From IMG/VR virus record IMGVR_UViG_3300007734_000613, positions 1 through 34,897 of that record: a DNA stretch of 34,897 nt; one strand, given 5' to 3'. A program made the translations under genes and the position numbers. This DNA comes from a virus. Shown here in pieces: positions 3,551 to 18,596 of this stretch. The notes beneath the pieces were generated by a model. It was not told where the DNA came from and did not search any database. It saw only the letters and a program-made list of their open reading frames with translations. Within the stretch, counting starts at the first letter, position 1. Each line of letters opens with the position of its first letter.

Positions 3551-4128
3551 TAGTAGAACTCCACCACCTGATACCCGATGGTCACGTTGTTCGTGCCGAC
3601 CGCGCGAGTCGCCGTGATCGTGGTCGCATTGGTCAGTTCGATCCGCGTCATGATGCGGTTCGGGACGCTCAGTTCCGTGCAGAGGAATCCGAGACAGTTG
3701 AGGCGCGCCTTGGACGTGTTCACGGTCGTGATGGTCGCCGTGTTCGACCCGACGCCGGTGAGCGCAATCGTGCCGCGCTGCACTTGCTTGATGACCCCGG
3801 GCCAGTATTCGATGACCTCATACACGTAGGTCTGGTTGTCGCCCGTCGTGCCCGTGCGCGTGGCCGTGATGGTCGTGGCATTGGTCAGCGCCAGATGACC
3901 GAACACGCAATCCCACTTATCCACCGTGGCGTCCGACGAACTCGACACCAGCGACAGGTCCGCGTTCGCCGTGCTCACCGCCGTAATCGTCGCGGTGTTG
4001 GACGAGGCCGTATTGCCGATGACGATGCTCCCGCGCTGAATCGATTTAATCAGCGACCGGAAGCCCGCCTGTGCGGTGCGAGAACTGAGCGCCGAGCCGG
4101 TCAGCGCCGCCGTGCTAGGCCGTCGCAT
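3550..4128 (-). CDS. Fibre/virion protein with two internal repeats
   Basis: 192 aa, coupled upstream and downstream through TAATG. The protein is an internal duplication. IKSIQRGSIVIGNTASSNTA...LTNATTITATRTGTTG...YEVIEYW recurs about 75 residues later as IKQVQRGTIALTGVGSNTA...LTNATTITATRAVGTN...YQVVEFY. Each copy is Thr/Ser-rich and beta-predicted, typical of trimeric fibre or adhesin segments. It sits after the tailspike-like fibre protein. The exact role, whether fibre shaft or receptor-binding module, is not readable from sequence. Confidence 0.6.
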   Translation of the reverse strand: MRRPSTAALTGSALSSRTAQAGFRSLIKSIQRGSIVIGNTASSNTATITAVSTANADLSLVSSSSDATVDKWDCVFGHLALTNATTITATRTGTTGDNQTYVYEVIEYWPGVIKQVQRGTIALTGVGSNTATITTVNTSKARLNCLGFLCTELSVPNRIMTRIELTNATTITATRAVGTNNVTIGYQVVEFY

Positions 4129-16100: not shown

Positions 16101-17339
16101 TTACCCCCACACCCGGGCAGCGAGCCGGGCCTGAATGGTGGCCGCGCCGATCAGCATGTCGAGGCGCGACGGGTTCTGGTCCGAGCCGATCTGATACTGC
16201 TCCACCATGCGGAGCGAGAATCCGAGGGCTTTGCTGCGGACCCTGGTTGCCTTACAGCCCGCGTCTGGCTCGAACAGGTCGGCCATGACGAACGCGAAGG
16301 CGTCCGGGTGATAGACCAGCGACTGCGGGGAGGCCGTCGCCGCCAGCGTGCCCGAGGCCGCCGCCGTCGCGCCCAGCACCGTGATGACGGCGTTGTTCGC
16401 GGGCGAGGCGTCCACGGTCTGGAGCTGGCCCGACGTGATGATCGAGGGCGAAATCGCAATCGTCATGTCGCCACCCGTTGAGGTGATGGTAGCGGTCACG
16501 ACGAACTGCTGCAGCCGCCCCGTCGAGGCGTAGGACAGCGGGTTAACCGTGTTGACCCCGGCGATGGTGAACACGTCGCCCTTGTTGAGCGTGGCCGCAC
16601 CCGAGGCCCAGCCATCCGTGATGAGCGACGAGCCGGTCTGGCTGCCGCCGTTCACCAGCGGTGTGGACGTGGTGTAGCTGCCCGTGGTGTGGGACAGCCG
16701 GTTCGGGTCCTGATACCACGCCGTCACGCCCAGTTGCTCGCGTCCGAACTGGCCCTTCCGGTAGTTCTCGGAGATGACCGCGCTTGGGTTGAACAGCGTG
16801 GATGAGGCGTTCGCCAGGGTGACCATCGCCATCGGGTCGAGGACCGCCACGCGGCCATCCATCGGAGTCGCCAGATCCGTCAGCTTCACGCCGGCCTGCA
16901 GATAGGTCAGCGTGGCGCTGGGGGTCGTGCCGGGCGTGCCCACGGACGAGTAGACATCCCGGACCACCTGGTTGTAGGCGAGCACGTCGGCGGCGTTCGC
17001 CAGCGTTTCCGCGCCCGGCTGCGTGTAGCGGGTGCGGATATTGTCCAGTTCGGTCGACGCCTGCGCGGACGAGTAGCCGAACGCGACATTCTTCTGGTTG
17101 GTCAGCGTGATCGGGACGGTCTGGTCGTAGAGGCTCTGGAGTTGCAGCGCCTGCCCGTCCGTCGCGGTGAACCGCTGCGGGAGCCGCGCCTGCACGGTGT
17201 TCCCGACACGGGCACCGGCCTGCTTGTACTGGTCGTCATAGGTGCGGTTCACGTTGGCGAGGAACTTGACCTCATTCGTGAAGCCCCTGGCGACCTCTTT
17301 CATCACCCATGTCGGGGTGGCGAGTGTGTTGAGTGCCAT
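16101..17339 (-). CDS. Major capsid protein, P22 coat (gp5)-like
   Basis: 412 aa, near the 430-aa length of P22 coat. The start (MALNTLATPTWVMKEVARGF, then NEVKFLANVNRTYDDQY), the GNTVQARLPQRFT strand and PVPITLTNQKNVAFGYSS-type segment (PITLTNQKNVAFGYSSAQAS), and the late GKATRVRSKALGFSLR-like region (TRVRSKALGFSLRMVEQYQI) are recognisable coat-family features with an HK97-type core expected. Gene order scaffold-coat supports it. The middle (residues ~230-330, LVNGGSQTGSSLITDGWASG onward) would hold the inserted beta domain of P22-type coat. Confidence 0.85.
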   Translation of the reverse strand: MALNTLATPTWVMKEVARGFTNEVKFLANVNRTYDDQYKQAGARVGNTVQARLPQRFTATDGQALQLQSLYDQTVPITLTNQKNVAFGYSSAQASTELDNIRTRYTQPGAETLANAADVLAYNQVVRDVYSSVGTPGTTPSATLTYLQAGVKLTDLATPMDGRVAVLDPMAMVTLANASSTLFNPSAVISENYRKGQFGREQLGVTAWYQDPNRLSHTTGSYTTSTPLVNGGSQTGSSLITDGWASGAATLNKGDVFTIAGVNTVNPLSYASTGRLQQFVVTATITSTGGDMTIAISPSIITSGQLQTVDASPANNAVITVLGATAAASGTLAATASPQSLVYHPDAFAFVMADLFEPDAGCKATRVRSKALGFSLRMVEQYQIGSDQNPSRLDMLIGAATIQARLAARVWG

Positions 17340-17345
17340 GTGGCG

Positions 17346-18383
17346 TTACCGAGCGCGTCGGGCCGCCTGCCGCCGATTCTCTCGGGCAATATACGCCTCG
17401 ATGGACTCGTCGTCAGACCCTTCGTCGCTCTTAAGTGGCGCGCCCCGTTCTGGCCGGATCGGGGGTTTCGCCTGACTGGAGACACGCGGAAGCTGGGCTG
17501 GGCCAGAGGGAGCAGCACCGATCCGCGATTCGAGGAGCGCCATGGACCGCGTCAATTCGCGCGGGGGCAGCGTGGCGAGGCGCTGAAGCTCATCGGGGTG
17601 CTGCGTGAAAAACCGCATCAGCCCCACAACGTGTTCCGACCGGCGAATTTCTTCACCGATGGCGTGCCAGGCGGTAACAGGCTCGCCCGGCTGCAAACTG
17701 TCGAAGGTCGGGATGTTCAGGACTTCTTGGGAGACGGACTCCAGAAAGGCCGGCTCGGCCGCTTCGATGCGGCTGATGAAGGACTCGTTGACGGCCTGCC
17801 GCGCCTGTTCGGCGCCCCGCTGTGCGGCGGTCTGCTGCCGGGCCTGTTCCTTCTCGGCATACCGCTGATCCGCGATGAAGATGGACAGGTCGGCGGTGTA
17901 ATCCGAATACCGCTCGTAGTCCTCCTCCTTCGGGGCGTTCGGCATCGCCATGTAGCGCTCGCGGTCGGGCACCGGCTTGGGCTGCTCCACCTGCGGCTGG
18001 CTGCGTGCGGCTTCGAGTTCGGCGGCCCGGCGCTCAGCGGCTTCAGCGCGGCGCTCGGCTTCGCGCTGGCGGGCGATGGCCTGCGAGATGCGGGCGTTAG
18101 GATCTTCCCTGGGCTTGGCGGGCTTCTTCGGCTCAGGATCGGGCGTGGCGGCGGCCACAGGGTCGGCCTCTTCCGGCTCGACCGGGTCCACCGTCACGCC
18201 ACGAAAACGGCCGCGCTGATCCCGGCCGTGTGGGGCGTTCGGCTCGGATACTTCGATGTCGTCAGCCGCAGCAGGCGCGGCGGTCACCCCCGCAACAGGG
18301 GCGGCCGGGGCCTGGGCGTCCGGCTCCGGGATGTTGCTGTCTATCTCGAATCCGTCCGTGCTCTCGGCGTATTGCGTGCCCAT
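17346..18383 (-). CDS. Scaffolding protein
   Basis: 345 aa from ATG 18383, chosen because an AGGGGG Shine-Dalgarno precedes it and because longer versions would cover the terminator hairpin. Acidic/Pro-rich N-terminus (residues 1-90), then an Ala/Glu/Arg coiled coil (QREAERRAEAAERRAAELEA), a middle with ERYSDYTADLSIFIADQRYA, and a basic C-terminus (ARENRRQAARRAR), the usual coat-binding end of scaffolds. Sits directly upstream of coat. It directs procapsid assembly and leaves before or during packaging. The gene lies only 15 bases below an intrinsic terminator, so read-through of that element must control its expression. Confidence 0.75.
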   Translation of the reverse strand: MGTQYAESTDGFEIDSNIPEPDAQAPAAPVAGVTAAPAAADDIEVSEPNAPHGRDQRGRFRGVTVDPVEPEEADPVAAATPDPEPKKPAKPREDPNARISQAIARQREAERRAEAAERRAAELEAARSQPQVEQPKPVPDRERYMAMPNAPKEEDYERYSDYTADLSIFIADQRYAEKEQARQQTAAQRGAEQARQAVNESFISRIEAAEPAFLESVSQEVLNIPTFDSLQPGEPVTAWHAIGEEIRRSEHVVGLMRFFTQHPDELQRLATLPPRELTRSMALLESRIGAAPSGPAQLPRVSSQAKPPIRPERGAPLKSDEGSDDESIEAYIARENRRQAARRAR

Positions 18384-18397
18384 CTGCCCCCTGAACG

Positions 18398-18438
18398 AAA
18401 AAAGGCCGCCCCGGAGCGGTCTGCTCCAGAACGGCCTT
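18398..18438 (-). terminator. Intrinsic terminator just upstream of scaffold gene
   Basis: On the minus strand AAGGCCG (18438-18432) pairs with CGGCCTT (18408-18402), with an inner stem GGAGC/GCTCC (18427-18423 with 18417-18413), followed directly by six T (18403-18398). This is a textbook Rho-independent terminator, oriented with the operon. It ends 15 bases before the scaffold ATG, leaving no room for a promoter in between. Confidence 0.8.
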
Positions 18439-18560
18439 GACCCTAGAAACGACAACAGCCGCGCCCAGCGCCTACGCGCTAGATGCGGCCTTGTCCCCTC
18501 GCGGGGTCATCGAAGCCTATTCAGTTCGGTCGCGGCTCACACGGCGCGAGCCTACCAACC
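18398..18560 (-). ncRNA. Candidate structured leader RNA / small RNA ahead of scaffold
   Basis: From the predicted start near 18560 to the terminator T-run is about 163 nt with no convincing frame. The RNA would be highly structured: GGCTC/GAGCC near the 5' end, a CCCC-GCGA-GGGG hairpin with a GNRA tetraloop (18507-18496 region), an AGCGC-GUAG-GCGCU hairpin enclosed by GCCGC/GCGGC, then the terminator. AAGGCCG occurs twice, at 18492-18486 and 18438-18432; the first could pair with the terminator's CGGCCTT and prevent hairpin formation. This is the layout of a transcription attenuator, or of a discrete phage small RNA. No tRNA features were found. No known RNA family is recognised. Confidence 0.45.
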
Positions 18561-18566
18561 GTGTCA

Positions 18567-18596
18567 ACTATGCGCGTCTACCTCGCGCCCTGTCAA
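18567..18596 (-). promoter_or_regulatory. Sigma70-type promoter for the head operon leader
   Basis: On the minus strand a perfect TTGACA (18596-18591), an 18-base spacer and CATAGT (18572-18567, 4/6 to TATAAT). It lies in the 255-base non-coding stretch between the 18711 gene end and the scaffold region. It points toward scaffold and coat. It is the best promoter match I found in the window. Between 18597 and 18710 I see nothing else convincing. Confidence 0.6.

Follow-up and report, generated by a model that had tools for sequence, protein, structure and literature searches.

Late gene expression in phage lambda is controlled by pR', the 6S RNA and tR' together with Q, an arrangement in which a promoter, a short RNA and an intrinsic terminator precede late genes that are reached by read-through. 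The mechanism of Q has been described (PMC7171158, PMC6606751). The put RNA of phage HK022, which is about 70 nt long and folds into two stem-loops, suppresses termination in the early genes (PMC9378689). The IsrK RNA of Gifsy-1 acts in trans on a read-through message leading to AntQ (PMC4825925). The glutamine riboswitch (glnA-like) of methylophage Melnitz controls tmRNA (PMC9004378), and the manA and wcaG motifs of cyanophages follow a comparable principle (PMC2864571).

We analyzed a locus directly ahead of the scaffold gene in an uncultured P22-like phage (IMG/VR virus record IMGVR_UViG_3300007734_000613; the whole stretch of 34,897 nt is called the window). Like pR'-tR', the locus has a promoter, a short RNA, an intrinsic terminator and late genes to be read through, but its position is amid the late genes, the genome yielded no Q-family match, and the RNA structure itself is conserved. 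It resembles put as a structured nascent phage RNA near a promoter, whereas the RNA is about 143 nt in relatives, has its own terminator within the fold and precedes late genes; the folds of the window leader and of the relatives' RNA both differ from the two stem-loops described for put. With IsrK it shares a promoter, small RNA, terminator and read-through message with alternative structures; the action in trans is IsrK's. Like the Melnitz riboswitch, it would be a phage-borne, cis-regulatory structured RNA of marine phages, but that riboswitch has a known Rfam-type fold, a ligand and a tmRNA target, whereas here capsid genes follow and no Rfam match was found. Bacterial attenuators and riboswitch leaders likewise place a structured 5' domain, together with an antiterminator and an intrinsic terminator that exclude each other, immediately ahead of the start codon of the gene they control; the present locus differs from them in matching no Rfam family, in preceding phage scaffold and coat genes, and in a hairpin that, in relatives, goes past the U-run. 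Among open-licence PMC papers on phage attenuators or structured RNAs before capsid genes, the element was undescribed.

Promoter, leader and terminator ahead of the scaffold gene

The gene products of the window included P22-type coat, portal, head closure and adaptor proteins and the scaffold. Profile matches identified the head scaffolding protein gene (PHROG 8865) at 17346-18383 and the P22-type major head (coat) protein gene (PHROG 283) at 16101-17339, both on the minus strand. ERF, YqaJ exonuclease, NinB/Orf, HNH and replication-initiation proteins were encoded upstream on the element's own strand. Since the order of transcription was recombination and replication genes, terminase, portal, small genes, the element, scaffold, coat and connectors, the element was placed within the late genes, at the start of the scaffold-coat part. 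Scanning of window proteins revealed no phage RNA polymerase, and the Q-type antiterminator families PF06530 and PF03589 had no match in the genome, the record of which is possibly incomplete.

The promoter, structured leader and intrinsic terminator were all located on the minus strand where the original prediction had put them. The sigma-70-type promoter (18567-18596) consisted of TTGACA (18596-18591), an 18-nt spacer and CATAGT (18572-18567); its -35 box and spacing were also present in one close relative, contig 3300011116_000496 (L003), the coat of which is 92% identical. The 5' part of the leader (18510-18562) was predicted to form a hairpin, GGCUCGC/GUGAGCC within GGUUG/CGACC, followed by UAGGCUUCGA. 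A long inner hairpin (18439-18508) was built of GACCC..GGGUC, GACAA/UUGUC and the anticipated GCCGC/GCGGC stem, where L003 had a short hairpin only. The terminator hairpin (18402-18438) had 16 pairs, a loop of 5 nt and a stability of -29.9 kcal/mol, and its stem ran into UUUUUU (18398-18403), the predicted 3' end of the RNA. The post-terminator strand GUUCAGGGGG (18384-18396), kept in L003, carried the ribosome-binding site of the scaffold gene (SD AGGGGG, ATG at 18383). As had been claimed, no promoter could fit after the terminator, because the 14 nt between U-run and ATG leave no room for a sigma-70 promoter. When both strands of the full 34,897 nt were scanned, one promoter of such quality and one terminator below -25 kcal/mol were found, both inside the element; the next best terminator reached -20.3 kcal/mol. 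The order of promoter, leader, intrinsic terminator and start codon, with no later promoter, is that of an attenuator, and a promoter, short RNA and intrinsic terminator before late genes is the lambda-type layout as well. Just 5' of the -35 box the window had a weak hairpin followed by TTTT (18625-18605), which was missing from L003 and could be the end of portal-operon transcripts; in L003 the upstream gene extends into the promoter.

The 180-nt leader folded with a minimum free energy (MFE) of -101.3 kcal/mol, compared with -77.1 +/- 4.5 for dinucleotide shuffles (z = -5.4). The antisense strand folded only at -73 kcal/mol, 28 kcal/mol worse than the sense strand (-101), which indicated that it is the head-gene strand whose RNA carries the structure. 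A predicted GNRA hairpin, CCCC-GCGA-GGGG near 18506-18495, was present as sequence, but the MFE fold instead paired GACCC with GGGUC around the inner stem. Within the leader, the conserved TTCGATG block contains the start of a 12-codon open reading frame (18510-18472). The corresponding 12-aa leader peptide, ATGACCCCGCGA..TAG, was not favoured, given its weak SD and an L003 frame of different phase and length; from the matching ATG, the L003 frame stops 1 nt before the L003 scaffold ATG.

The 5' strand of the terminator, AAGGCCGUUC, was common to a candidate antiterminator. When prefixes without the 3' arm of the terminator were folded, the MFE structure paired GGCUU (18517-18513) with AAGGCC (18438-18433) in the window and in L003 alike; in the window the helix was lengthened by GAAU:GUUC, so that the candidate 5' strand GAAU-A-GGCUU (18513-18522) faced 18438-18429. 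This GGCUU:AAGGCC pairing is a prediction from two sequences rather than a covariation result: it was kept in the single close relative, and a counterpart, ACACG:CGUGU, was compatible across the marine family of relatives described below, with little sequence variation. An antiterminator had been proposed from the sequence AAGGCCG, and both copies were indeed found (18492-18486 and 18438-18432). The duplication cannot be a conserved device, since the whole inner stem holding the second copy was missing from L003; the candidate pairing that L003 does share is a different one, between 18522-18513 and 18438-18429. The terminator fold was more stable than the antiterminator fold (-101 vs -89 kcal/mol), so something must hold the antiterminator.

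Conservation of the leader and a family of RNAs in relatives

Comparison of leaders of the window type involved the window and L003. The 5' part was identical at 46 of 52 positions while fourfold-degenerate sites were 50% (scaffold) and 61% (coat) identical, so the window leader is under selection. L003 shared the -35 box, the spacing (its promoter being TTGACA-18-CATGCT), the 5' hairpin, the UAGGCUUCGA block, the terminator strand AAGGCC, the U-run and the GUUCAGGGG ribosome-binding site, and lacked the long inner stem with the second AAGGCCG copy. A lack of conservation of 18398-18560 in relatives, which would have counted against the original prediction, was thus not observed. Searches of IMG/VR by scaffold and portal and with two leader patterns gave no window-like leader beyond the contig already known; the remaining pattern matches fell within a conserved region that is unrelated, and are probably fortuitous. 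Neither Rfam at gathering or relaxed thresholds nor BLASTN of the region against 50,697 phage records gave a match to the window.

We then turned to 80 IMG/VR loci whose coat gene is related; 67 of them had enough upstream DNA. A strong hairpin and U-run stood directly before the scaffold in 22 of the 67, some of them near-duplicates. Many other relatives had a short upstream region followed by the scaffold; because these lack any leader, leader control is dispensable. Many of the terminator-bearing loci shared an RNA of about 143 nt, in which a three-way junction (P1-P2-P3) is followed by a long hairpin, P4, whose upper part is the terminator. In the lower part of P4, (A)AGGGGACACACGAC is paired with GUUGUGU-AGUCCCC, a strand located past the U-run. 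Recognisable -35 and -10 boxes lay upstream of the RNA in many relatives; none were clear in others.

A plain MAFFT alignment of all members misplaced P1 and P4, and a hand-specified structure with a covariance model (R1, with eight members as input) was used instead. It found 23 distinct examples. In their alignment 94.5% of cells were paired, and both-sided changes occurred in 32 of 51 pairs, compared with 13.6 +/- 2.4 when shuffled and at most 10 with partners slid; as the alignment was fitted to the structure, the pairing counts are somewhat raised and the slid and shuffled controls carry the weight. All six helices showed both-sided changes, including those past the U-run. Outside the U-run, G-U cells outnumbered A-C cells 80 to 18 in the marine family, as expected for a sense-strand RNA. 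A soil contig binned as Acidobacteria (L116), kept out of model building, scored 46.5 bits (E = 2.4e-9). No Rfam match was obtained in ten relatives at gathering or relaxed thresholds, and BLASTN of one relative's RNA against the 50,697 phage records, which include cultured phage genomes, gave none. With 23 aligned examples and the independent soil one, the alignments indicate that the relatives' RNA is a new covariation-supported family undescribed by any Rfam model. Two close coat relatives, L115 and L116, are in MAGs labelled Planctomycetota and Acidobacteria, which are weak host hints.

Exactly one copy was present in 9 of 13 records searched whole and zero in the other 4, and among relatives the marine-family RNA was seen solely ahead of the scaffold. 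In several members, prefixes ending before the 3' arm of the terminator folded the ACACG:CGUGU antiterminator hairpin, which uses the 5' strand of the terminator; the L116 counterpart was CUGG:CCAG. The strand GGGGA was complementary both to the P3 loop and, as part of P4, to the strand past the U-run, the latter pairing showing covariation. Loop and strand were complementary as UCCCC/GGGGA and, in three individual members, as ACCCU/AGGGU (L050), CUCCG/CGGAG (L081) and UCCUC/GAGGA (L116); a pseudoknot between P3 loop and GGGGA is suggestive only, as base composition by itself makes C-rich loops fit G-rich strands. One locus (L014) had lost the RNA between two T-runs (~3950-4040) and kept the promoter and ribosome-binding site; a second (L016, ~170-270) showed a resembling loss in a pairwise alignment that was not clean. 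Both are apparent natural leader deletions, with assembly error as an alternative.

The window was considered as a member of the marine family and rejected, the models R1 and R2 matching terminator-like stems only (8.8 and 11.6 bits). Since the family model does not match the window leader, the covariation of the family does not apply directly to it. What the two share is the layout of promoter, structured 5' domain, terminator with an upstream partner strand, and scaffold start, and a further locus (L063) had the identical layout in unrelated sequence. Among distant cultured phages, PBR31 (L136 1996-2075) and PAE2 (L137 2154-2242), with coats 37-39% identical, had a simple intrinsic terminator before the scaffold, after the portal or a small gene, with no long leader and no evident promoter after the terminator. 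A CCAGT hairpin before the scaffold was common to BA3, X14, FGH and ctn9Y15. These terminators and hairpins indicated that a stop signal or hairpin before the scaffold recurs in the lineage while the 5' domains differ. In P22-coat phages of Vibrio, Shewanella, Thalassomonas and spring water (L141, L142, L143, L144 and L149), a CCAGT..ACTGG hairpin lay about 30-50 nt before the scaffold start.

Proposed attenuation and competing explanations

The existence of a structured leader and a terminator requiring read-through was supported by position, by conservation in L003 and by the recurring terminator in relatives. We read the locus, with a probability of about 0.52, as an attenuator acting in cis on transcription of the scaffold-coat part of the late operon. 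Polymerase would initiate at 18596-18567 or come in from the upstream portal gene. During synthesis of the leader, AAGGCCGUUC (18438-18429) would pair back first to GAAU-A-GGCUU (18522-18513), forming the antiterminator. With the 3' arm synthesised, AAGGCCGUUC could instead enter the 16-pair terminator, and transcription would mostly end near 18398, yielding an RNA of about 163 nt. If the antiterminator were held by a bound protein, a ligand, a host factor or an altered polymerase, transcription would read through into the scaffold, coat and tail genes. The scheme presumes, from sequence, that promoter and terminator are active, that the antiterminator forms in the cell and that a regulator exists.

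A more ambitious reading, which we hold only tentatively, is that the locus represents an undescribed class of phage regulatory RNA timing capsid production, in which a sensor domain toggles one strand among antiterminator, terminator and post-terminator helix. In the marine and soil family the sensor would be a three-way junction, possibly with a pseudoknot between loop and strand; in the window it would be an unrelated domain. A capsid-assembly protein or a metabolite of the host could act as its reader.

The main rival to attenuation is antitermination as in lambda, because the order of promoter, RNA of about 160 nt, intrinsic terminator and late genes is identical. The promoter would then be constitutive and the RNA short and terminated until a trans-acting phage factor or a put-like RNA modifies the polymerase, the leader being a loading platform with no self-contained switch. 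In keeping with such control, on one strand the genome looks lambdoid, with hits to ERF, YqaJ exonuclease and NinB/Orf, and no phage RNA polymerase turned up among the proteins scanned. We consider it unlikely, as the Q families PF06530 and PF03589 gave no match, the element is preceded by terminase and portal, which is not so in lambda, and the relatives' RNA is a three-way junction and hairpin of about 143 nt as opposed to the two-hairpin put RNA of about 70 nt (PMC9378689).

The original prediction had left the choice between attenuation and a small RNA, and the comparisons favoured the former. A terminated, structured RNA of about 163 nt would arise at the locus and might work in trans as a small RNA of the phage in its own right, and perhaps on the read-through message too, as at the IsrK locus, where terminated and read-through forms cooperate (PMC4825925). 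This is rather improbable, because in relatives the conserved pairing reaches past the terminated 3' end and the RNA occurs solely before the scaffold, in one copy per record searched; antiterminators in both leader types also argue for attenuation. A third possibility is that the portal and scaffold units are simply insulated by a terminator, or separated by a hairpin for RNA processing, without any regulated switching. This would suit the leaderless simple terminators of PBR31 and PAE2 and the plain hairpin of other distant phages, but is likewise improbable, as it would need neither a conserved 5' domain nor a covarying three-way junction with post-terminator pairing, and no promoter after the terminator would restart transcription.

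No part of a phage burst costs more than the head proteins, whose ratio and timing must be right. How head proteins are timed in P22-like phages that have no recognised late regulator is poorly known, and a conserved attenuator directly before the scaffold would offer a concrete control point. Relatives naturally lacking the leader, together with the apparent deletions, are ready comparisons. If the reading as an undescribed class were true, it would mean RNA-level feedback on scaffold and coat expression in P22-like phages.
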